This document shows, in pieces, positions 2,280-15,537 of a stretch of DNA of 38,451 bases; positions within the stretch are counted from its first letter, which is position 1, and each line of letters opens with the position of its first letter. Source of the DNA: Chitinophagaceae bacterium. GTDB lineage: Bacteria; Bacteroidota; Bacteroidia; Chitinophagales; Chitinophagaceae. Under the pieces are notes generated by a model. The model made no database searches, was not told the origin of the DNA, and saw only the letters and a program-made list of their open reading frames with translations. The translations under genes were made by a program, and so were the position numbers. Location of the stretch: the NCBI GenBank assembly GCA_013694745.1, contig JACDBU010000222.1, positions 1 through 38,451 of the forward strand. Reading direction: 5' to 3'.

Positions 2280-4484
2280 ATGAAAATATTTCTTTTCCTA
2301 TCTTTTCTTTGTATTGCATCCCTATTACAGGCACAGGATAAAATCATACTTGCAGATCCTGAATTCATAACGGGTAATAATGATCACTGGAAAGATATTT
2401 CATTCGATGATTCAAAATGGAAGACTATCCGGCCGAATATTTTATGGGAACCCCAGGGATATCCTGACTACAATGGCTACGCCTGGTACCGGTTTCATTT
2501 TAGGCTGCCATCATCTTTAAAAGACAATTCTTTCCTGAAAGATTCGCTCAGGATATTTCTTGCAAAAATTGATGATGCTGATGAAACATTTTTAAATGGA
2601 GAAAAGATCGGTGCAACAGGAAGTATGCCGGAAGATAAAGAAGGATACATTGGAGCCTACAATGTTACCAGGGAGTACCACGTTGCAACGGCCAGTAAAT
2701 TTTTGCGATGGGATAAAGAAAATGTGCTCGCCGTTAAAGTGTACGATGGTGGTGGCGGAGGTGGAATGTATGGTGGCCATCCTTATATCGATATGATCGA
2801 TATCATTGATGCAATTTCTTTAACATTACAACATGCAGTTGAAAAAAATGAAGTGAGTGTGATCATAACCAACCAGCTGGGAATAAATATAAACGGGAAC
2901 CTGCATCTCCAAATCAAAGACCGTAAAAACAACAGGACCATTTTAAATAAAAACATTTCTCTTGTTCTTTCACCTTTAAAAAGCGCTTATAAAAATATTG
3001 AAGTGCCGGAGGGTGAAATGGAATTAAGTATTTCTTTCAAAGAAAAAAATACCGGTAAAATTAAAAGCCTGGTTTATGTAATGCCGTACATACTTACCCC
3101 TTTGCCAGGTGATGTACCCCGCATTAACGGAGCCAAAATATTTGGTGTAAGACCCGGATCACCTTTCCTTTTTAAAATTCCGGTAACCGGGAAAAAGCCC
3201 TTACTGTACCATGTTGATAATTTGCCTGCAGGCTTGCAGGTGGATGCGGCAACCGGGATCATAACCGGCACATTATCAAACCGGGGAGAATATAAAACAC
3301 AGGTAACGGTTACTAATAACGCTGGTAAAGCAGCACGGGAATTTACCATAATAGTGGGGGAGCATTTATCGCTAACACCGCCGATGGGCTGGAATAGCTG
3401 GAATTGCTGGGGCCTCAGCGTTAGTGCGGAAAAAGTAAAAAGCTCAGCCCAGGCTTTAATAGACAAGGGATTGGCAGATCACGGATGGAGCTTCATGAAT
3501 ATTGATGATGGATGGGAAGCAGAAAAGCGCAGCGCAGACAGCAGCATATATGCAAATGAAAAATTTCCTGATATGAAAGACCTGGGAAACTGGCTGCATG
3601 CAAAAGGATTAAAATTTGGAATATATTCTTCGCCAGGCACACAAACATGTGGTGGATATTCAGGCTCGTACAAAAATGAAGTGAGTGATGCAAATACGTA
3701 TTCGGGTTGGGGAATTGATTATTTAAAATACGATTGGTGCAGCTATGATGAGGTTTATAAAAAAGAAGGTGACACAACTTTAGCTGCCTACATGAAACCA
3801 TATCGTGTAATGCAACAAGCATTAAAAATACAACCCCGCGATATAAATTATAGCCTTTGCCAGTATGGAATGAAAGACGTGTGGAAATGGGGAAACCAGG
3901 TAAGTGGAAATAGCTGGAGAACTACGGGTGATATTGAAGATACCTGGGAAAGTCTTAGCAGTATTGGATTTAACCAGGATAAACTTTTTTCTTATGCGGC
4001 ACCGGGCCATTGGAATGATCCGGATATGTTGATCGTAGGGCAGGTTGGCTGGGGGAAACCACACCCAACAAGGCTTACGCCCGACGAACAGTATACCCAC
4101 ATAAGCTTGTGGTGTTTGTTATCTTCCCCCCTACTTATTGGATGCGATATCAGTAAACTTGATGATTTCACTTTAAATTTATTGAGCAATGATGAAGTAC
4201 TAGCCGTTAACCAGGACGTATTGGGAAAACAAGCCAGGCGAATAAAGCGAACAGCCACTTATCAAATATGGCTGAAGGAACTGGAAGATGGAAGTAAAGC
4301 GATCGGGATTTTTAACCTGGGCGAAACATACCAAACTGTTTCTGTAAACTGGCATGAGTTTGGAATTTCTGACAATGAAAAAGTAAGGGATCTATGGCGG
4401 CAAAAAGACCTTGGATTTTTTAAAAATAATTTCATCTCTAACGTTGCTCCTCATGGTGTGAAGTTTATAAAAATTTGGAAATAA
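2280..4484 (+). CDS. Secreted alpha-galactosidase, GH27 family
   Basis: 734 residues, ATG start. Signal peptide about 1-19 (ends LLQAQ). Residues 20-180 resemble a galactose-binding jelly roll (DDSKWKTI, YAWYRFHF, LNGEKIG). Residues 285-358 look like a cadherin-like putative Ig domain (LPAGLQVDAATGIITGTL). The catalytic GH27 barrel begins at 366 with TPPMGWNSWNCWG. The nucleophile should be D485 in YLKYDWC and the acid/base D551 in WRTTGDIEDTW; GHWNDPDMLIVG follows at 576-587. A C-terminal beta domain ends the protein. The expected reaction is hydrolysis of terminal alpha-galactosides from galacto-oligosaccharides or plant polymers in the periplasm or outside. It stands alone, with no SusC/D pair in view. 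Substrate is inferred from family only; alpha-N-acetylgalactosaminidase is the main alternative. Confidence 0.9.
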   Translation: MKIFLFLSFLCIASLLQAQDKIILADPEFITGNNDHWKDISFDDSKWKTIRPNILWEPQGYPDYNGYAWYRFHFRLPSSLKDNSFLKDSLRIFLAKIDDADETFLNGEKIGATGSMPEDKEGYIGAYNVTREYHVATASKFLRWDKENVLAVKVYDGGGGGGMYGGHPYIDMIDIIDAISLTLQHAVEKNEVSVIITNQLGININGNLHLQIKDRKNNRTILNKNISLVLSPLKSAYKNIEVPEGEMELSISFKEKNTGKIKSLVYVMPYILTPLPGDVPRINGAKIFGVRPGSPFLFKIPVTGKKPLLYHVDNLPAGLQVDAATGIITGTLSNRGEYKTQVTVTNNAGKAAREFTIIVGEHLSLTPPMGWNSWNCWGLSVSAEKVKSSAQALIDKGLADHGWSFMNIDDGWEAEKRSADSSIYANEKFPDMKDLGNWLHAKGLKFGIYSSPGTQTCGGYSGSYKNEVSDANTYSGWGIDYLKYDWCSYDEVYKKEGDTTLAAYMKPYRVMQQALKIQPRDINYSLCQYGMKDVWKWGNQVSGNSWRTTGDIEDTWESLSSIGFNQDKLFSYAAPGHWNDPDMLIVGQVGWGKPHPTRLTPDEQYTHISLWCLLSSPLLIGCDISKLDDFTLNLLSNDEVLAVNQDVLGKQARRIKRTATYQIWLKELEDGSKAIGIFNLGETYQTVSVNWHEFGISDNEKVRDLWRQKDLGFFKNNFISNVAPHGVKFIKIWK

Positions 4485-4602: not shown

Positions 4603-6183
4603 TTATGATTTGTACTGGTGCATTATTTCCTGTGCCAGGGCAGTCATCTTTTTAATACCGTCTTCCGGCAAATTACCTTTTTTAAATTCGGCTAAAATTT
4701 CAGGATACTTGCTATCCATCTGCATTAAAAATTGTTCTTCAAATTCTTTCACATGTTTTACCGGAATAGAACTTATTAGTCCATTTGTTCCAAGATAGAT
4801 CATGGCAACCTGCTTCTCAACAGCGTAAGGTGAAAACTGTGGCTGTTTCAGTATTTCAACATTCCTTGAACCTTTATCCAATACAGATTTTGTTGCAGCA
4901 TCAAGGTCACCACCAAATTTTGAAAACGCTTCCAGCTCGCGGTATAATGCCTGGTCGAGCTTTAAAGTACCCGCCACTTTTTTCATTGATTTTATTTGTG
5001 CATTACCACCCACACGGCTCACAGAAATACCAACGTTAATAGCAGGACGTATACCCGCATTAAAAAGGTTTCCTTCTAAGAATATTTGTCCGTCGGTAAT
5101 GGAGATCACATTTGTAGGGATGTACGCAGATACGTCACCCGCCTGGGTTTCAATGATAGGAAGTGCCGTTAAAGATCCACCGCCTTTTACTAAGTGTTTT
5201 ATTGATTCAGGCAGGTCATTCATCTTCTGTGCTATCTCATCTTTGGAAATAATTTTTGCAGATCTTTCCAGTAAGCGGCTATGCAAGTAAAATACATCAC
5301 CAGGGTAAGCTTCACGGCCCGGAGGTCTTCTAAGTAAAAGAGAAACTTCACGATAAGCAACGGCCTGCTTTGAAAGATCATCATAAATGATCAAAGCCGC
5401 ACGGCCCGTATCCCTGAAAAATTCGCCCAGTGCAGCGCCTGCAAACGGTGCGTAGAACTGCAATGGTGCAGGATCAGAAGCTGATGCAGCAACAATGGTT
5501 GTATATTCCATTGCGTCATTTTCCTGCAATGTTTTCATCACCTGTGCAATGGTAGAAGCCTTTTGACCGATGGCAACATATATGCAATAAACGGGTTTAC
5601 CCGCTTTAAAAAATTCTTTTTGATTGATGATTGTATCAACGCAGATCGCACTCTTGCCGGTTTGACGGTCACCGATTACCAACTCTCTTTGTCCGCGGCC
5701 GATGGGGATCATTGCATCAATTGCTTTGATACCCGTTTGCAACGGTTCTTTAACGGGCTCTCTAAAAATTACACCGGGTGCTTTGCGCTCCAATGGCATT
5801 TCGTAGAGTTCACCAGTAATAGGGCCTTTGCCATCAATAGGTTCACCAAGTGTATTAATAACACGCCCTGCTAATCCATCTCCTACTTTTATGGAGGCAA
5901 TTTTGCCGGTACGGCGAACTGAGGCGCCTTCTTTGATATCACCGCTATCACCCATTAACACCACACCCACATTGTCTTCTTCAAGATTGAGTGCGATGGC
6001 TTTTACTCCATTTTCAAATTCTACGAGCTCTCCGGAACTAACATTGTTTAATCCGTACACACGTGCAATACCATCTCCTACCTGCAGCACCGTACCTACT
6101 TCTTCAAGGTTTGCCTCAACATTAAAATTGCTTAGTTGCTGACGAAGGATCGCCGAAATTTCATCAGGTTTAATATCAGCCAT
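4603..6183 (-). CDS. atpA: ATP synthase F1 subunit alpha
   Basis: 526 residues, ATG start, full family length. It is the non-catalytic nucleotide-binding subunit of the F1 head that alternates with beta on the cytoplasmic face. Visible: N-terminal beta barrel ([11 protein letters not shown]), P-loop GDRQTGKS at 171-178, [10 protein letters not shown] at 360-369, and [10 protein letters not shown] at 387-396 with R390, the arginine finger reaching into the beta active site. The stretch before [15 protein letters not shown] is longer than in E. coli, a usual Bacteroidota feature. It is the last gene of atpB-E-F-H-A, 39 nt after atpH, followed by a strong terminator. The gamma gene that commonly follows alpha is absent; beta and epsilon are usually encoded elsewhere in this phylum. 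Confidence 0.98.
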
Positions 6184-6222
6184 AAAAAATATTTTATTTT
6201 TAAAATAATAATTTGCGGATCT

Positions 6223-6786
6223 CTACCTTAGCCTGTGTAGATAATCATTGTTCATAAATTGCTTCTTAATATCCCGGAGATCCCTTTGTATACTGGTATC
6301 TACCAGTTTGCCTTCCATTTCCAACACAAATCCCCCGATCAGTTTTTCATTAACCGCGGTTTCCAATTCAATATTTTTTGTGTCCTCTGCAGATTGTATT
6401 TTTTCTATAAACGCCTCTTTCATTTCTTCACTCATCGCTTCAGCTGTTGTGATCTTTACTTTGTGAATACCTTTTACCTGGTTGTATTGCGCAATGAATG
6501 AAGTAATAATTTCAGGCAGGTTTGATTCACGATTTTTAACCCCAAGCAATTTTATAAATGCGCCGGTAAGCTCGCCTACCCGGCCTTTTGTTATTGATTC
6601 AATGATTTTATTTTTTTTATCTTCGGGTATTATCGGGCTTCGAAGTACAGCAGTAAAATCAGGATTTCCTTTACAAACCGCTTGCAAAAACTTCATCTCA
6701 TTATTTACCTCGTCTAACTGGTTGCGTTCTGTTGCCAGGTCAATTAAACTTTTTGCGTACCGTATTGCTAAACGTGGATTGTTCAT
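6223..6786 (-). CDS. atpH: ATP synthase F1 subunit delta (OSCP)
   Basis: 187 residues, ATG start, slightly over the usual 175-180. Delta caps F1 and joins it to the peripheral b stalk. Visible: NPRLAIRYAKSLIDLA at the N-terminus, the typical first helix of the six-helix bundle; a central SPIIPEDKKNKII segment; and near the C-terminus ELETAVNEKLIGGFVLEMEGK followed by DTSIQRDLRDIKKQF, the family signature. It sits between atpF and atpA. The 154-nt gap from the atpF stop is unusually long for this operon and holds an inverted pair of GC-rich palindromes. Only 39 nt separate it from atpA. Confidence 0.96.
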   Translation of the reverse strand: MNNPRLAIRYAKSLIDLATERNQLDEVNNEMKFLQAVCKGNPDFTAVLRSPIIPEDKKNKIIESITKGRVGELTGAFIKLLGVKNRESNLPEIITSFIAQYNQVKGIHKVKITTAEAMSEEMKEAFIEKIQSAEDTKNIELETAVNEKLIGGFVLEMEGKLVDTSIQRDLRDIKKQFMNNDYLHRLR

Positions 6787-6790
6787 AACT

Positions 6791-6940
6791 AAAGCCCCTA
6801 AATCCCCGAAGGGGACTTTGAAAATTCTTTATAATTTAAAAAATATTTTTTCATTCTTAATTTCGTCTATTTCCTTTTTTATGCTTACCAACTCAGCATA
6901 GTCTTACTTAGTTCTCCCTTCGGGGAAGTAGAGGAGCTTA
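6791..6940. repeat. REPIN-like inverted pair of palindromes
   Basis: Copy 1 (6791-6827) contains AAAGCCCCTAAATCCCCGAA then GGGGACTTTG. Copy 2 (6903-6940), read on the minus strand, contains TAAGCTCCTCTACTTCCCCG then AAGGGAGAACTAAG. Both share the core CCCCGAAGGG with a 3-nt loop and the flank AAGCnCCT, in opposite orientation about 75 nt apart. The arms could fold into one long hairpin. It fills the atpF-atpH gap. REP-type elements often have this doublet form; copy number elsewhere is not visible here. Confidence 0.6.
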
Positions 6941-7435
6941 TTAATTCAGTTTTACAGAATCAGCCAGTTGTTTAATATACTTTTCCTGTTCTTCTTTATT
7001 GCTTAGTTCGCGGCGCAATATTTTTTCACTTACTTCTACTACCAAATTTCCCACCTGGTTCTTAAGATCTGTAATGGCAGCCATCTTCTGCATGTTTATG
7101 GCAGATTGCGCGTCAGCAATGATCTTATTGGTTTCGATCTTTGCCTGCTCTTTTGCTTCGCCAATAATTTTATCTTTCGTTTCCTTTGCTTCTTTAAGCA
7201 TTTGCGCTCTTTCTTCACGAGCTTTTACCAGCAAGGCCTCATTTTCACTTTTCATAAGAGCCATTTCAGCTTTTATTTTTTCTGCGGTTGCCAGCGAATC
7301 AGCGATCCCTTTTTCACGTTGATTCAATGAATTGAGAATGGGCTTCCAGGCAAATTTCTTAAGAATAAGGAAAACGATTATAAAGGAAAGTAGTGTCCAG
7401 AATATCAATCCAAATCCGGGTGTGAGTAATTGCAT
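6941..7435 (-). CDS. atpF: ATP synthase Fo subunit b
   Basis: 164 residues, ATG start, usual family length. The b dimer is the peripheral stalk that holds F1 still against the rotor. Visible: short N-terminus with TPGFGLIFWTLLSFIIVFLI, one membrane helix at about 8-27, then KKFAWKPILNSLNQREKGI and a long charged helix rich in Ala, Lys and Glu through about residue 150, ending near KYIKQLADSVKLN. One gene copy of ordinary form, so a b2 homodimer is expected. It lies 168 nt after atpE and 154 nt before atpH; both gaps are long for an atp operon and carry dyad-symmetric sequence. Confidence 0.97.
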   Translation of the reverse strand: MQLLTPGFGLIFWTLLSFIIVFLILKKFAWKPILNSLNQREKGIADSLATAEKIKAEMALMKSENEALLVKAREERAQMLKEAKETKDKIIGEAKEQAKIETNKIIADAQSAINMQKMAAITDLKNQVGNLVVEVSEKILRRELSNKEEQEKYIKQLADSVKLN

Positions 7436-7603
7436 TGTGAGCGATTAAATAGTTAAAAAGTTTAATTTTTTAATCAGATGATTAAACTTGTATGCTGATA
7501 AATGAACAACAGTACAAGTGAGTGACACAACGAAGATGCCATGAAAAACATATGCTGGTCACAAAATTGTAACTGGTACAGTCCCGAAAATTACTTTTCA
7601 GTC
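7436..7603. other. Long atpE-atpF spacer with dyad symmetry
   Basis: This 168-bp non-coding spacer holds a perfect 8-bp palindrome TTTAATCA-GA-TGATTAAA near 7473-7490, overlapping a second possible stem AGTTTAAT / ATTAAACT. Further left-to-right is a moderately GC-rich block (about 7508-7587) with GTGAC / GTCAC dyads. The only minus-strand frame is 25 codons and is not convincing. It may be RNA processing sites or a dispersed element. Confidence 0.35.
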
Positions 7604-9026
<1,423 letters not shown>

Positions 9027-9102: not shown

Positions 9103-10875
9103 TTATATAATAATTGATGTTTTTTCCTGGGTTTCGAATTGCATTTTGTGCAGCTGGTAATAAAACCCTTCTTTGGCCAGTAATTCTTCATGGTTACCCA
9201 GTTCTTTTATTACTCCTTTATCAAGCACCATTATTGTATTTGCTTTTTTAATGGTAGATAAACGATGTGCAATAATTATGGATGTGCGACCATTTATAAG
9301 TTTATCAATTGCCTGCTGAATGAGCATTTCGCTTTCTGTGTCAATAGATGAAGTTGCCTCATCCAGTACAAGTATTGAAGGATCGTACAGTAATGCCCTG
9401 ATAAAAGATAATAGTTGTCTTTGTCCTAGTGAGAGGGTGGCGCCTCTTTCCATAACATTATAATCATACCCGCCAGGCAACCTGGTAATAAAATTATGCA
9501 CGCCGATAAGCCTTGCTGCTTCTATTACCTGTTCGCGTTTTATGGCGGGATTGCGTAAGGTTACATTGTCTATCACCGAGCCACCAAATAAAAAAACATC
9601 CTGTAAAACAACCGCAATATTGCTTCGTAAATAATCTACATCATATTCATAAATGTTTTTATCATCAATTTTTATTTGTCCCTTTTGTATATGATACAGC
9701 CGGTTAAGCAAACTGATTATTGATGTTTTACCACTTCCCGTGTGGCCAACAATGGCCAGTGTTTTCCCTGCTTCTATTGTAAAGGAAATATTTTTGAGCA
9801 CATAATTTTCATCGGAGTATGCAAACCAGACATTTTGAAATTCAACCTTGCCGTTTAATTTTTTTCCCGTTGTAGAATGTGCCGGATCAACCGGTATATA
9901 ATCCTGGTTATCCAGCACTTTAAATACTCTTTCGCTGGCGATCATGCCCATTTGCAATACATTAAATTTATCAGCAATAACCCTTAATGGCCTGAACAAT
10001 AAATTTAAATACATGATGAAGGATATGATAACGCCGGCATTAAATGCATAATTAGCGCCCCACCACACGAGCAAGCCAATTGAAAATGCAAGTACAATTT
10101 CAACGATCGGGAAAAATATGGAATACGCTAATATGGACCGCACATTGGCATTGCGGTGTTCCGTATTTATGGCCTGGAATTTTTTGAACTCTTTGTCTTC
10201 CACTGCAAAAGCCTGCACCACTGCCATACCCGTAATATGTTCCTGCACAAATGCATTGAGATTAGCTACGGCATTGCGTACCCGTATAAAGGATATGTTT
10301 ACACTTTCCTTAAAAAAATACGTTGCAATAATTATTATGGGGAAAGGTGCAAGGCTTATTAATGACAAACGCCAGTCAACAAAAAACATAAATAATAAGA
10401 TCGATATTATAGAAAGCATATCAGCTACGATGGGAATAAATCCATCAGAAAAAATATCATTCACAGATTCAATATCATTGATAGTGCGGGTGGTTAAAGT
10501 ACCTATCGGCGTATTATCAAACTGGGAAAGATTTAAGCCAAGTATCTTTTTATAAACTGCTACCCGCAAGTCTTTTACAACTGACTGGCCAAGCCAGGCA
10601 GTGATGTAGGTAAAATAAAAACGAAGCCAGGTTTCACACAGTAACATACCTACCTGGATAACGGTTATCCATACCAGCCAGAAGGTGTTCCGGTCCCTGA
10701 TAAAATGGTTTACCGTGTATTGAATTAAAAAAGGCCTCAGCGGAGAAATTACCGCCAGTACTATTGAGAGGACAATGGAGAGATATAATTTTTTTTTATA
10801 GGGAGAAGCAAAATGAAAAACCTTTTTCAACTGGGTAAAATCGAAAATTTTTTTTCGTTTTTTTTTATCGGGCAT
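9103..10875 (-). CDS. ABC exporter, fused membrane and ATPase domains (MsbA/MdlB-like)
   Basis: 590 residues, ATG start; a half-transporter that must dimerise. The N-terminus is very basic (PDKKKRKK). Residues 25-310 form a type IV exporter membrane domain of six helices. The ATPase domain follows: Walker A GHTGSGKT 377-384, Q-loop Q425, signature LSLGQ 481-485, Walker B ILVLDEA 501-507, switch H537. All catalytic residues are present, so a working homodimer is possible. Substrate unknown; lipid, lipopolysaccharide precursor or drug export are the family roles. Same strand as the atp genes, 76 nt upstream of atpB, but atpB has its own candidate promoter, so co-transcription is uncertain. Confidence 0.93.
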   Translation of the reverse strand: MPDKKKRKKIFDFTQLKKVFHFASPYKKKLYLSIVLSIVLAVISPLRPFLIQYTVNHFIRDRNTFWLVWITVIQVGMLLCETWLRFYFTYITAWLGQSVVKDLRVAVYKKILGLNLSQFDNTPIGTLTTRTINDIESVNDIFSDGFIPIVADMLSIISILLFMFFVDWRLSLISLAPFPIIIIATYFFKESVNISFIRVRNAVANLNAFVQEHITGMAVVQAFAVEDKEFKKFQAINTEHRNANVRSILAYSIFFPIVEIVLAFSIGLLVWWGANYAFNAGVIISFIMYLNLLFRPLRVIADKFNVLQMGMIASERVFKVLDNQDYIPVDPAHSTTGKKLNGKVEFQNVWFAYSDENYVLKNISFTIEAGKTLAIVGHTGSGKTSIISLLNRLYHIQKGQIKIDDKNIYEYDVDYLRSNIAVVLQDVFLFGGSVIDNVTLRNPAIKREQVIEAARLIGVHNFITRLPGGYDYNVMERGATLSLGQRQLLSFIRALLYDPSILVLDEATSSIDTESEMLIQQAIDKLINGRTSIIIAHRLSTIKKANTIMVLDKGVIKELGNHEELLAKEGFYYQLHKMQFETQEKTSIII

Positions 10876-10925: not shown

Positions 10926-13130
10926 TTATCCCTTTGCCTTTGTGTAAGCTTTTATAAATAATGCGCCAAGATTTTTATGTGGTGGTACATAATCATCAAA
11001 CAGATCTTTTTTATCGTGCGGGCCTTTTGCAAAAGAAGCATCCAGTGTATTCCACATTTCTCTCCAGTCAATATTTTTACCTGCACGTAAAGTATTATTG
11101 AGTGCTTCAATTATTGGCTTATTAATATCCTTTGCGCCAATTTGTTTGGTAGAGATTATGTGAGCCTCGGGTGCATAGTCTAAAATTTGTTTAAGATTTT
11201 TATAGCCGCCACATGATCCAAGCATGATGATCTTGGCAGTTTCGGGCAACTGTTCAATGGTATATTGTAAATGATAACTATGACCGCGATGGATAACAAC
11301 TGCGGGGCGTAGATTTTTTTCATCCAGGTAATCTATCAGGTGTTTTTGTGCATCCGCATCTTTATCTGTTACATTATCCAATGGAAGATTTGCGTATATC
11401 CAGATCGGTTTTCCTTTTATCGATTTTATTTCAACCCATTCCTTTGTGGTTGTTACTTTCCAATCACTTGCAGGGAATGAACTCATGTAACTGCTAAAAG
11501 ATTCTTTACCATCTTTATCCCCATAAAAAAATACCTGCTGTATGATACGGCCTGTGTCATCTGCCAGGTAATTGTAATCAACCGTATATACAGGCGGGAT
11601 CCCTATTTCTTTTGCCAGGTCAATATTATTAGCAGGATCTGAAGAAAGGAAAATGGTCCTTAAAAGATGATATAATTTTTGCCCAGGCTGGTTACCGCTT
11701 TGCAAACACCTTTGTTCATTTTCGGTTACATAATCAAGCATTGATTTAAGCAAATTCGGATCACGGATACTACCGTACGAATCGGCTACATCTACTGCAT
11801 CTTCAAGGGTTCCTGTACTCTCCAACTTGCTTACAAAGGCTTTCATTAATATCTCCGAATTATCCTTCATCGTTCTTAAAAAGGTGTCCAGCTTATTATA
11901 AGCTGCAGCCATTTTTATAAACTTTTTAAAGTGATCAAAGTTTACCGACATCAATAATGAATCACCTTTGGGTTTGGGACCCAAGCGTTGCATCATCCTG
12001 TCAAAACTATTTTTATAACTCGAAGTAAAAATTTCATTTTCTCCAAACACCATCATGTAATAAAGTTCCTGTGGCCCCAGCGGATCAATCGCTCTAAAAC
12101 GAATGGCCGGGTTGTTTACTTCATGCAATTCATTGATGGGTGTAATGAAATGCTGTATGGCTTTACGCTGCAGCATATCCATAAGCCCATCCGTACCTGC
12201 CATAGCAATGGGTGTATCACCATGCTTTAACCTGTTGTAATAATCGATCTCTGTTTTTACTAGCAGTTTGAAATAGCCAACACTATCATATTTTTTTTCA
12301 TTGCTGCCAATATATTTTGAAATGCTTTCTATTGTTTGCTTACCACTTATTAGGTCGTCTAAAAAAGGAAAATAAAATAATGCGCCATCCAAATGACTAA
12401 GCTGTACAATGATCTTTATGCGGCTGTCCTGGTTTCTTTTTATAAGCTGTCCGGGCAAACTTGAGGTTGACTGGGCATAAGAATAAAGCTGGGAAGGACT
12501 ATTTTCAAATGCTACAAGTACCAGTGTATCTGCAAATGGCTCATTTATATAAGGGCCGATGTTGGCTAGAATTTTATCAGGATGCAGTTGTGCAAATTTT
12601 AAAAATAAAGTTTTTTTACTTTCCTGGTAACCCGGGTTCTCCTTAAAAATTTCTGAATTGATGAGGCCAACTTCGTATGGAACCTGCTGAATATAAGGCA
12701 CCATATTTTCGCCGCGGAGGTTAGCTTGTAAAATAGCAGAAAAATTTTCCACGAGCACCGGGGCAAGTGCCGGAGAAAATTTTCTCGCCCTCCAGTTGTT
12801 TGTAAAATCTCTAACCAGGCTTTCGATATACCTTAAATACCTGATCTTATCATTGCTTGTGGGAAGTGATTTATTAGCTTCAATGCCGTAACGCAGAATA
12901 TCCACCTTTCTCATGATCGCATCGGTAACCTGCATGTTGATATCATCCGATTTAGAAACTTTTATCATGCCATCTGCCTTGCCATCTGTTTTATCGGCTC
13001 TTAACTGCTCAGCTTTTATTTTATCATGAAATCCCTGGCGCCCAATGGGGATGATGGTTGAATCGGGACTGGCAAAAGATCTAAGTTGAAAAACCAGGAG
13101 GAAAATGAGCAGGTAAAAAATTTTATTCAT
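10926..13130 (-). CDS. Large secreted protein with clan CD (caspase/gingipain-like) C-terminal domain, putative
   Basis: 734 residues, ATG start, signal peptide about 1-20 (ends SFAS). I do not recognise the family by name. Residues 60-520 are mostly predicted helical with no repeat I can define. Residues 570-690 alternate hydrophobic strands and helices: KPIWIYANL, then AVVIHRGHSYH at 610-620, AKIIMLGSCGGY at 632-643, AHIIST at 656-661. A His on one strand (H614 or H617) followed by Cys after the next strand (C640 in GSCGG) is the arrangement of clan CD cysteine peptidases (caspases, gingipains, CHAT). The peptidase call is inference from motif and order only. It lies 50 nt upstream of the ABC exporter, so export or processing links are possible. 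A candidate -7 box precedes it. Confidence 0.7.
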   Translation of the reverse strand: MNKIFYLLIFLLVFQLRSFASPDSTIIPIGRQGFHDKIKAEQLRADKTDGKADGMIKVSKSDDINMQVTDAIMRKVDILRYGIEANKSLPTSNDKIRYLRYIESLVRDFTNNWRARKFSPALAPVLVENFSAILQANLRGENMVPYIQQVPYEVGLINSEIFKENPGYQESKKTLFLKFAQLHPDKILANIGPYINEPFADTLVLVAFENSPSQLYSYAQSTSSLPGQLIKRNQDSRIKIIVQLSHLDGALFYFPFLDDLISGKQTIESISKYIGSNEKKYDSVGYFKLLVKTEIDYYNRLKHGDTPIAMAGTDGLMDMLQRKAIQHFITPINELHEVNNPAIRFRAIDPLGPQELYYMMVFGENEIFTSSYKNSFDRMMQRLGPKPKGDSLLMSVNFDHFKKFIKMAAAYNKLDTFLRTMKDNSEILMKAFVSKLESTGTLEDAVDVADSYGSIRDPNLLKSMLDYVTENEQRCLQSGNQPGQKLYHLLRTIFLSSDPANNIDLAKEIGIPPVYTVDYNYLADDTGRIIQQVFFYGDKDGKESFSSYMSSFPASDWKVTTTKEWVEIKSIKGKPIWIYANLPLDNVTDKDADAQKHLIDYLDEKNLRPAVVIHRGHSYHLQYTIEQLPETAKIIMLGSCGGYKNLKQILDYAPEAHIISTKQIGAKDINKPIIEALNNTLRAGKNIDWREMWNTLDASFAKGPHDKKDLFDDYVPPHKNLGALFIKAYTKAKG

Positions 13131-13330: not shown

Positions 13331-13338
13331 TAGGTTTG
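13331..13338 (+). promoter_or_regulatory. Candidate promoter of the response regulator gene
   Basis: TAGGTTTG matches TAnnTTTG, with TTG at 13311-13313, 17 nt upstream. The gene's ATG would lie only about 10 nt after the start of transcription, giving a very short leader. Confidence 0.4.
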
Positions 13339-13353
13339 CAAAAACTTTCTGTA

Positions 13354-14031
13354 ATGGAAAATAAAGCTGGTAAAATTTTAATTGCTGATGATGAACCGGA
13401 CATACTTGAGATCATCAGCTTTAATCTCCAATCAGAAGGGTACGAAGTTTTTACCGCAAAAAACGGGGAGCAGGCAATTGAGCAGGCAAAAAAGCATATG
13501 CCCGATCTGATAATTTTAGATGTGATGATGCCCCGTAAAAACGGATTTGAAGTTTGCAACATTCTCCGGTTACAACCTGCTTTTAAAGATACCATCATCA
13601 TTTTTCTTACCGCTCTTAATGATGAATCTACAGAAATAAAAGGATTGGAAACGGGTGGTGACGATTATATTACCAAACCTATAAGTCCGAAAGTTTTAAT
13701 TAGCAGGATCAACGCATTATTCCGCAGGATCACGAAGGAAACAGGAAGTATTTTGCAGATAGGTGATCTGCAAATTGATCGTGAAAAGTATAATGTAGTT
13801 TATAAGAACGAAGAAATTTTTTTAGCAAGAAAAGAATTTGAACTGCTCGCATTGCTTACATCAAAGCCACAAAAAGTTTTTTTGCGCAATGAGATTTTGC
13901 ACCAGGTATGGGGCACAGACGTTATTGTTGGTGATCGTACCATTGATGTACACATAAGGAAAATACGCCAAAAGCTGGGTGCAGACTGCATTACAACAGT
14001 TAAAGGAGTAGGCTATAAATTTCAGATGTAA
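13354..14031 (+). CDS. PhoB/OmpR-family response regulator (orphan)
   Basis: 225 residues from the ATG at 13354; a TTG at 13336 lies inside the candidate -7 box and is unlikely. Receiver domain 6-120: acidic pair D12-D13, phosphoacceptor D56 in LIILDVMMP, T86 and K108 (DDYITKP). The C-terminal winged helix (about 130-225) shows ARKEFELLALLTSKPQKVF and TIDVHIRKIRQKLG, then the terminal GVGYKF hairpin, typical of PhoB/OmpR DNA binding. The protein would be phosphorylated by a sensor kinase and bind direct repeats. No histidine kinase gene is adjacent on either side; Bacteroidota PhoB-like regulators are often paired with a PhoR-type kinase. Target genes unknown. Confidence 0.94.
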   Translation: MENKAGKILIADDEPDILEIISFNLQSEGYEVFTAKNGEQAIEQAKKHMPDLIILDVMMPRKNGFEVCNILRLQPAFKDTIIIFLTALNDESTEIKGLETGGDDYITKPISPKVLISRINALFRRITKETGSILQIGDLQIDREKYNVVYKNEEIFLARKEFELLALLTSKPQKVFLRNEILHQVWGTDVIVGDRTIDVHIRKIRQKLGADCITTVKGVGYKFQM

Positions 14032-14073: not shown

Positions 14074-15537
14074 TTAAAGTGCCTGTAATGGAATATCCCT
14101 CTTCAACATTTTATCACGGTTAGCAATTTCCCATGCGGTAAGAAAAATAAGGCGCACTCTTTTTTCGTACAGATCCCAGTTTATTTTCTCAATAGTATCC
14201 GTTGGTTTGTGATAATCTGCCAGCAGCATTCCATCATAAAAAAATAAGATCGGAACTCCTTTGCGAGCAAAATTATAATGATCACTCCGGAAATATATCC
14301 TTTGTTTATCCGCAGGATCATCGTATTTATAATCAAGTTTAAGATGGGTGTATTTATTGTTAGCAGCTTCATTGATCACGGGCAGGTCGCTGCTTAATTT
14401 ATCATGACCAATAACATAAATATAATTGGTAGTATCACCGGTTTTGCGCTCTGTATCTATACGGCCAACCATATCGGTATTAAGATCAACAGAGGTTTTA
14501 TCTAATGGAAATAAGGGATGGTCTGAATAATATTCAGATCCCCATAAACCTTTTTCTTCACCACTCACTGTCATAAAAACAATTGTTCGTCTTGGGCCCT
14601 TGCCCGCAGCTTTTGCTTTTGCAAATGCCTGTGCCATTTCTATCACGCCCACTGTTCCACTGCCATCATCATCGGCGCCATACCAGATAACCGTATCACG
14701 TTTACCAAGATGGTCGTAATGCCCGGTTAAAAAAACGTATTCATCTTTCAGGTCTGTTCCCGGCAAATAACCGATCACATTACTGCTCTGTAAAAGGATG
14801 GTTTGTTTTTCAACCGACAAGAGAATATCGGCAGAATAAATTTTTCCATTTTGTTCAGGCAGGTTTGGTGTACCGGTTATTGCAGCTGCCACTTGTGGCG
14901 TGATGAAAAAGTTTTGCCGGCTAACAGATTTTACAAACTGGTGCAGGTACATATTTCTCCGCTTACTATTATTGCGGTCGAACACCTGCTTGTTTGTGGA
15001 TACATTTAAAACAACTGATGCAGTATTAAGCGCGGCCTGCAACTTTGAATTGGTGGTTGCCGCAGATGCTAAATTGTTTTCAAATAGTAAAACTATTTTA
15101 CCCCTCATGTCAGGGCTGATCTTTGCAGTATCGCTCATGTTATTAATAGCAACCACTTCAGAAAAATGGTATGTGGCAGGTAAAACATTATTAATATTGA
15201 AAGCAAAATCTTTATCAACTGAAAAGCTTTTACCATTTATTTCCAGTACTGCTTTTGTAATACTGTCCTGGTAAACAGTATAATACATTTGGTAGCTGCC
15301 ATTATTTCCCGGTACCAGTCCAATATTTTTAAACTGCTGCTCAATGTAGGCGGCGGCTCGTTTTTGACCGGGTGTGGCAGTTTCCCTTCCTTCCATTTCC
15401 CGGCTGGCAATTATAGTAAGATGTTTTTTAAGATCTGCTCCTGTAATGGCTTTTGCAAATACTTCTGGGTTTGATTTTTTTTGTGCGCCGGCAAAAAAGC
15501 CATTCAGCAATAAGGCCAGTAATACTATTTTATGCAT
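14074..15537 (-). CDS. Secreted M28-family zinc peptidase
   Basis: 487 residues, ATG start, signal peptide about 1-18 (ends FAGAQ). The catalytic M28 domain holds the full two-zinc set: H273 (TGHYDHLG), D290 (GADDDGSG), base E327 and ligand E328 (SGEEKG), D355 (NTDMVG), H443 (ADYHKPTD). An insert between about 120 and 245 resembles the protease-associated domain that often precedes M28 (SPDMRGKIVLL). The expected role is an aminopeptidase or carboxypeptidase acting on peptides in the periplasm or outside. It lies 88 nt after the TPR gene with its own candidate promoter, and is convergent with the response regulator. Substrate specificity cannot be read. Confidence 0.92.
   Translation of the reverse strand: MHKIVLLALLLNGFFAGAQKKSNPEVFAKAITGADLKKHLTIIASREMEGRETATPGQKRAAAYIEQQFKNIGLVPGNNGSYQMYYTVYQDSITKAVLEINGKSFSVDKDFAFNINNVLPATYHFSEVVAINNMSDTAKISPDMRGKIVLLFENNLASAATTNSKLQAALNTASVVLNVSTNKQVFDRNNSKRRNMYLHQFVKSVSRQNFFITPQVAAAITGTPNLPEQNGKIYSADILLSVEKQTILLQSSNVIGYLPGTDLKDEYVFLTGHYDHLGKRDTVIWYGADDDGSGTVGVIEMAQAFAKAKAAGKGPRRTIVFMTVSGEEKGLWGSEYYSDHPLFPLDKTSVDLNTDMVGRIDTERKTGDTTNYIYVIGHDKLSSDLPVINEAANNKYTHLKLDYKYDDPADKQRIYFRSDHYNFARKGVPILFFYDGMLLADYHKPTDTIEKINWDLYEKRVRLIFLTAWEIANRDKMLKRDIPLQAL

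Follow-up and report, generated by a model that had tools for sequence, protein, structure and literature searches.

What is encoded by the minus-strand gene at positions 10926..13130 of the window, and could its product be an enzyme? The window, that is the whole stretch of DNA analysed, comprised positions 1 to 38,451 of contig JACDBU010000222.1 (assembly GCA_013694745.1) of a Chitinophagaceae bacterium. The open reading frame (ORF) list and the homologues gave an exported protein of 734 residues, in which a predicted helical arm of about 480 residues was followed by a C-terminal caspase-like domain. Judged from predicted models, the protein would probably be a cysteine peptidase of the caspase-haemoglobinase kind, exported and most likely periplasmic, in a family of its own, and its layout was best read as separase-like and clan-CD-like.

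Two sets of homologues were compared. The full-length alignment held 71 rows including that of the window, after the partial loci L030, L059 and L065 were dropped, together with sequences whose C-terminal ends were identical. The set of C-terminal domains, drawn from part of the order-wide matches listed, went from 155 to 151 when identical cores were removed, with a median pairwise identity of 42% and a minimum of 24%. It contained 24 loci (L196-L219) picked by an ORF with the pattern H.G.S...G.C, which biased the set towards conservation, such an ORF being present in 24 of 24, and 60 further stretches (L232-L291) taken by the frame with fewest stops.

Two motifs stood out, both on the minus strand like all parts of the gene given below. 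One is H614-R-G-H617-S618 (11277..11291), with the candidate catalytic histidine, lying at the end of a strand that stopped at 614/615; the other is G638-S-C640-G-G642 (11205..11219), after the next strand, with C640 as candidate nucleophile. H614, R615, G616, S618, G638, C640, G641, W689, W693, Y714, P717 and N720 were identical in all 151 domains, while H617, N581 and N670 were kept in 150, D538, S639, K662 and G665 in 149, and D540 and G541 in 148. In the 71 full-length sequences, H614, R615, G616, S618, G638, C640 and G641 were identical throughout and H617 was found in 70. A preliminary description of this DNA had proposed to look for conservation of this Cys and these His among homologues, and its suggestion came through that comparison intact. 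No invariant His column followed C640 among the 151 domains, the best being H657 (111/151), so His comes before Cys in the sequence, the order of clan CD.

A full AlphaFold model was made from 30 sequences together with a separate domain model of residues 510-734, and secondary structure was assigned by DSSP. The mean predicted local distance difference test score (pLDDT) of the full model was 88.8, with values of 85, 87, 85, 82, 91 and 73 for successive ten-residue blocks between 611 and 670, and the domain model reached a pLDDT of 91.0 and a predicted template modelling score of 0.90. Residues 29-509 (11604..13046) were composed of helices only, with no strand before 516, as seen in the full model, where the arm was folded together with the rest; this agreed with the helical N-terminal part described earlier. 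The alpha/beta domain, residues 516-734 (10929..11585), was clan CD-like by the domain model and its structural matches.

The predicted linear order in this domain was beta1-alpha1-beta2-beta3-beta4-alpha2-beta5(His)-alpha3-beta6(Cys)-alpha4-beta7-alpha5, with further helices. At the site, strand 611-614 (611-615 in the domain model) ended at H614, then came helix 618-626, strand 634-637 and G638-S639-C640, so both models agreed with the earlier claim of a strand-HRGHS and a strand-GSCGG with one helix between them, at 614-618 and 638-642. In the predicted models, two consecutive core strands thus carried first the His and then the Cys where they end C-terminally, which is one of several criteria for clan CD. 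Other conserved residues had similar places: D538-K-D540-G541 (11508..11519) with D538/D540 after strand 529-534, N581 ending strand 576-581, H614-S618 ending 611-614, C640 after 634-637, and K662 after strand 657-661, the segment K662 to N670 (11121..11147; K662 149/151, N670 150/151) being part of the conserved sheet edge. Conserved residues past the C-terminal strand ends would mark the active-site place of an alpha/beta domain.

Structural searches brought clan CD proteins among the best matches. With VIA-align 2, in which two rows with scores within 1 were treated as ties, the full model matched SAVED-CHAT (8tl0) first (Z 9.8, root-mean-square deviation 3.4, 163 residues aligned), followed by Gtr/EGO GTPases (8.8), Csx29 (8eex; 8.6, 150 aligned), DdvA (8.5), ARF1 (8.5) and separase (5fc2; 8.4, 155 aligned), and further down by the C11 peptidase iotapain (6nag; 8.1, 183 aligned). 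The domain alone matched C11 iotapain first (Z 8.8, root-mean-square deviation 3.9, 183 of 225 residues aligned), with 6n9j at 8.7. For comparison, Dali Z scores of PmC11 against caspase-7, gingipain-K, legumain and TcdB-CPD were 9.2, 9.2, 9.1 and 7.6 (PMC4850288). As published values within clan CD span 7.6-9.2, a Z near 9 is the level which different clan CD families can show to each other.

Several results weigh against a clan CD assignment. Rag-type GTPases were matched by the domain with Z 8.6 and 8.4 (137 and 156 aligned). Of the 50 VIA-align rows listed in each case, 10 were clan CD with the full model and 2 with the domain; these two were C11 entries, and neither CHAT nor separase was among the domain matches listed. 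The Foldseek list for the domain was led by GTPases, namely MglA (E 9.7e-4), FeoB and Rab G-domains, and for the full model Foldseek gave nothing below E 0.14; its matches mixed proteins of helical repeats with G-domains, and a chain of a Csx29 complex stood at rank 24. Since Ras-like GTPases scored 8.8 and 8.6 against 9.8 and 8.8 for clan CD, fold scores alone do not settle the matter. At the site itself, neither His precedes Gly in H-R-G-H-S, unlike the classical His-Gly motif: G616-H617 was found in 150 of 151 domains, yet the residue after H617 is Ser and that after H614 is Arg.

Profile comparison weighed in the same direction. Profiles were built from 26 CHAT, 23 C14, 28 C25 and 10 C11 stretches, chosen from the genome-search tables rather than from all their rows, and were aligned to the family by hhalign with E values of 0.027 (CHAT), 0.053 (C14), 0.2 (C25) and 0.61 (C11); none was significant in either direction, so no direct homology to these four families was detected, and global hhalign gave nothing useful. 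Column-permuted profiles reached the real score in 2 of 60 cases for C14, 15 of 60 for C25 and 44 of 60 for C11, and in none of 60 for CHAT. On these figures C11 would hardly be the nearest relative by sequence, because its E value was 0.61 and 44 of 60 permutations were as good. In control pairs among the four known families, two of six were below E 0.01 in both directions, CHAT-C14 (about 1e-7) and C11-C14 (below 1e-3). Four of six pairs of known families went undetected, thus an absent profile signal is common inside the clan and says little here.

The clan CD-like layout asserted in the preliminary description was partly supported: for it were the linear strand order, the predicted His and Cys at strand ends, the invariance of the site and the presence of clan CD among the best matches, and against it the near tie with GTPases and the non-significant profiles. 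The fold check proposed there did not refute it, but its outcome was not clean, as Ras-like GTPases scored nearly as high and filled most of the domain list.

In the best local alignment to the CHAT profile, H617 was paired with the THG His and C640 with the SAC Cys, the two catalytic residues of CHAT. This alignment and the preceding Gly favour H617 as the acting His, while strict invariance, the strand end and a separase-like spacing of 26 to C640 favour H614. Both are candidates, with a slight leaning towards H617.

Export was suggested by a Sec-type signal peptide at about residues 1-21 (13068..13130), which was visible in the sequence as MNK, a hydrophobic core and SFA|S, with no Cys in these residues. 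A crude hydropathy test was passed by 68 of 71 homologues, the three failures being L066 (masked by X) and the borderline L083 and L087, and a lipobox pattern was tripped by one homologue, L046. The protein had been described as secreted; the signal peptide bears this out as far as export goes, while a periplasmic place is more likely than secretion because no C-terminal signal model of the type IX secretion system (T9SS) was matched. A reading as T9SS cargo was rejected accordingly, no NCBIfam model being matched at E<=5.

No database gave a name to the protein. The window protein had zero matches in Pfam, NCBIfam and PADLOC at E<=5 and among PDB sequences at E<=10. A Pfam scan of 30 homologues (E<=1) returned scattered weak matches to 20 families, the best at E 0.01 and none to a peptidase family, and a PDB sequence search with a 30-row profile gave a single match, a DUF3732 protein (E 2.1). 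The Pfam families C11 (PF03415), CHAT (PF12770), C14 (PF00656) and C25 (PF01364) were unmatched by the window protein (E<=5) and by the 30 homologues (E<=1), and separase C50 had neither a Pfam nor a PDB sequence match with the window protein, the 30 homologues or the 30-row profile. A role as a defence system was rejected for want of a PADLOC match. Among the papers listed by searches of open-access full texts, judged by title or abstract start, none was on this family, and the string HRGHS occurred in open-access full texts only in a plant paper on SOS1.

The first alternative to a peptidase is another active Cys/His alpha/beta enzyme, clan CD-like or of another Rossmann-like fold, e.g. a thiol acyltransferase, transpeptidase or amidase whose substrate, a peptide or lipid of the envelope, would be supplied by the neighbouring ATP-binding cassette (ABC) exporter. 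Conservation extends beyond a bare dyad (to R615, S618, N581, K662, N670, W689, W693, Y714 and N720), GSCGG also fits a G-x-C-x-G nucleophile elbow, and an ABC exporter gene lay downstream in 33 of 69 sequences; a GATase_3 match in Pfam was found in 1 of 30 homologues at E 0.15, which is chance level. Class I glutamine amidotransferases, alpha/beta-hydrolases and papain-like enzymes have their Cys before their His. These three readings were rejected, since Cys-then-His families would need a conserved His after C640 and H657 was the best column there; clan CD peptidases, moreover, were among the top structural matches. Such a non-peptidase enzyme was thus held to be rather unlikely.

A second alternative, also raised in the preliminary description as an inactive binding module, is a clan CD-like fold which had turned to binding or scaffolding, as in pseudo-orthocaspases, for which Tyr and Ser have been reported in place of His and Cys (PMC6426788). 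The sole change of H617 among the 151 domains was of this sort, a Tyr (HRGYS) in the tandem copy at 5474-8266 of locus L077, which stands beside an intact copy and is possibly its pseudoenzyme partner. The family as a whole would be unlikely to be inactive, because the site was invariant over 151 domains, with C640 and H614 unchanged in 151 and H617 in 150, and the probability given to this alternative was lower than that of the non-peptidase enzyme. A Ras-like or other P-loop nucleotide-binding domain, to which the Foldseek matches (MglA, FeoB, Rab) and the Rag/Gtr scores in VIA-align (Z 8.8 full model, 8.6 domain) had pointed, was highly improbable and was discarded for the missing P-loop and the signal peptide: the first loop lacked GxxxxGK[ST] in every one of the 151 domains, K542 was K in 45 of 151 only, and most GTPase alignments stopped by residue 172-197 of 225 (Ran 205-217) with 126-156 residues aligned, whereas C11 alignments reached 225 with 183-186.

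Among known clan CD families, the peptidase proposed here was closest to C11 (clostripain, PmC11, iotapain) at the level of domain structure (Z 8.8, 183 of 225 residues). PmC11 has nine strands in the order 4-3-2-1-5-6-7-8-9, of which beta3 and beta4 do not belong to the caspase core; His133 sits at the C-terminal end of beta5 and Cys179 at that of beta6 (PMC4357240, PMC4850288). In the 734-residue protein the same linear strand order, the only order compared, was predicted with two extra strands after beta2, and the His and Cys were likewise predicted at the ends of beta5 and beta6. A secreted Bacteroides member of C11 is known from the title of entry 6nag. The C11 motif His-Gly...Ala-Cys (PMC12445089) was not present, as the 734-residue protein has G-H-S and S-C, and two residues before the Cys it has Gly638 against Asp177 of PmC11. 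It also differs from C11 in its large N-terminal helical arm and in the lack of a Pfam C11 match and of profile similarity.

With TPR-CHAT/Csx29 and other CHAT proteases (PF12770) the protein shares helical repeats followed by a C-terminal caspase-like domain. The full-model Z scores were 8.6 for Csx29 and 9.8 for SAVED-CHAT, and the best profile alignment, local and non-significant, superposed both site residues on those of CHAT. Csx29 is part of a CRISPR complex (PMC9729208), whereas the 734-residue protein has a signal peptide and no Pfam CHAT match, and its His-Cys spacing is 23 or 26 against 42 in TPR-CHAT/Csx29 (H585/C627). Separase (C50) also combines a long helical N-terminal region with a C-terminal caspase-like domain (PMC4626109; Z 8.4 for 5fc2, 155 aligned), and the H614-C640 spacing of 26 equals that of human separase H2003/C2029 (PMC9729208). 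For TPR-CHAT and human separase, about 7 A is the reported His-Cys distance in the inactive state (PMC9729208). The 734-residue protein differs from separase in being bacterial and exported and in having no Pfam match. YabG, set beside it by description only, is not known to have a helical arm. This His-Cys peptidase of bacteria has been suggested as a clan CD member although its sequence does not resemble those of the others in the clan, and it differs as a sporulation protein with an Ala-Cys motif (PMC12445089).

The helical module was matched twice in tandem before the catalytic domain in all five long homologues, which had 931-1076 residues and came from other families of the order: L070 3957-7184, L071 2974-6201, L074 4928-7924, L076 6293-9286 and L077 5474-8266. 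In three of them (L070, L071, L077) the long form stood beside a copy of normal length. Since the module is duplicated in the long homologues, the arm is a discrete module.

In the mechanism proposed for the peptidase, His614 and/or His617 would activate Cys640, and the activated Cys640 would attack a peptide bond. D538 and D540, on the loop after the first strand, might be part of the S1 pocket, which would then prefer a basic residue at P1. PmC11, an enzyme with basic P1 specificity, is inhibited by Z-VRPR-FMK (PMC4850288). Arg87 of caspase-7, on loop L1, binds the P1 side chain (PMC4357240), and in the S1 pocket Asn50 of PmC11 superposes on Asp365 of MALT1 (PMC4850288); at a guess, D538/D540 would correspond to these positions. 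The arm could be where a substrate or a regulator binds and could restrain the catalytic domain, by analogy with separase and TPR-CHAT, in which partner binding is the control.

Homologues were found in 128 of 298 genomes of the order: in the family of the window 83 of 85 genomes had one, and elsewhere in the order 45 of 213. The gene is genuine and ancient rather than a chance frame, because it recurred in 83 of 85 family genomes and both motifs were invariant or nearly so in 151 domains. The two family genomes with no homologue were of 2.3 Mb each and listed as 100% complete, thus the gene can be lost. Among near relatives, 41 of 59 genomes had a homologue (35 of 36 in the window's own family). 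A pattern scan of named contigs, which reaches close relatives only, gave relatives at 30 loci, with Ginsengibacter hankyongi, Segetibacter aerophilus, Flavisolibacter nicotianae and Pollutibacter soli as named carriers, all Chitinophagaceae in the NCBI taxonomy. Across the phylum, 15 of 395 genomes were matched, 14 of them in the window's family, and no convincing match was found outside the order; the fifteenth (G107, 18 bits, one internal stop) was set aside as a chance-level fragment. A second copy in one genome (L238, G614 C4 843320-844075) had an internal stop and is perhaps a decaying duplicate. The window's own genome also encodes CHAT (L118, contig C94, open frame of 1698 residues), C14 (L145, C31, 684 residues) and C25 (L190, C213, 1675 residues) proteins, so known clan CD families coexist there with the new one.

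The gene was flanked on both sides by recurrent neighbours. An ABC exporter (ABC_membrane and ABC_tran in Pfam; 9103..10875, minus strand) starts 50 nucleotides after the stop of ORF 10926-13130 and is likely co-transcribed with it. The adjoining exporter reported in the preliminary description was thus present in the window on the same strand, and as a feature of the family it was only partly conserved, coming next after the gene and in the same orientation in 33 of the 69 sequences with enough flank, that of the window included. A divergent response regulator (Response_reg and Trans_reg_C; 13336..14031, plus strand) was the commoner neighbour, standing upstream in 44 of 71. Beyond it, many loci had an ORF of ~350 residues, and the two that were scanned (L015, L021) encoded histidine kinases. 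In the window this place, beside the response regulator, was taken by an M28 peptidase gene (14074-15537), so the usual partner of the regulator is absent there. At L077, outside the window's family, a regulator, a histidine kinase and a DUF547 gene preceded two tandem copies of the gene. This pattern suggests a link of gene 10926-13130 to a two-component system, though it may partly reflect slow rearrangement.

Further along, Pfam identified F-ATPase genes (4603-9026) next to the exporter, and the order of ABC exporter then atp genes was recurrent in many relatives' loci. At 2280-4484 lies a gene for an alpha-galactosidase-like protein that begins with a putative Ig domain (Melibiase_2, He_PIG).

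The divergent response regulator, together with an operon-like order with the ABC exporter in about half of the sequences, suggests a regulated envelope role for the peptidase, which might act on an envelope or exported protein. A fuller proposal, tentative and with the odds against it as a whole, is that of a new peptidase family, nearly universal in Chitinophagaceae, that would correspond in the periplasm to separase and TPR-CHAT: its clan CD domain (HRGHS/GSCGG) would be gated by a duplicable arm and controlled by a two-component system. Cell death, the separation of chromosomes and the processing of toxins all depend on enzymes of clan CD. If the proposal is true, solenoid-gated caspase-like proteolysis, known inside cells, would also work in the bacterial envelope. 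The clan would gain an unnamed family that is exported, has a layout like that of separase and carries HxxHS at its site in place of HG, which is unusual, and with its residues invariant the prediction would be directly testable by single point mutants.

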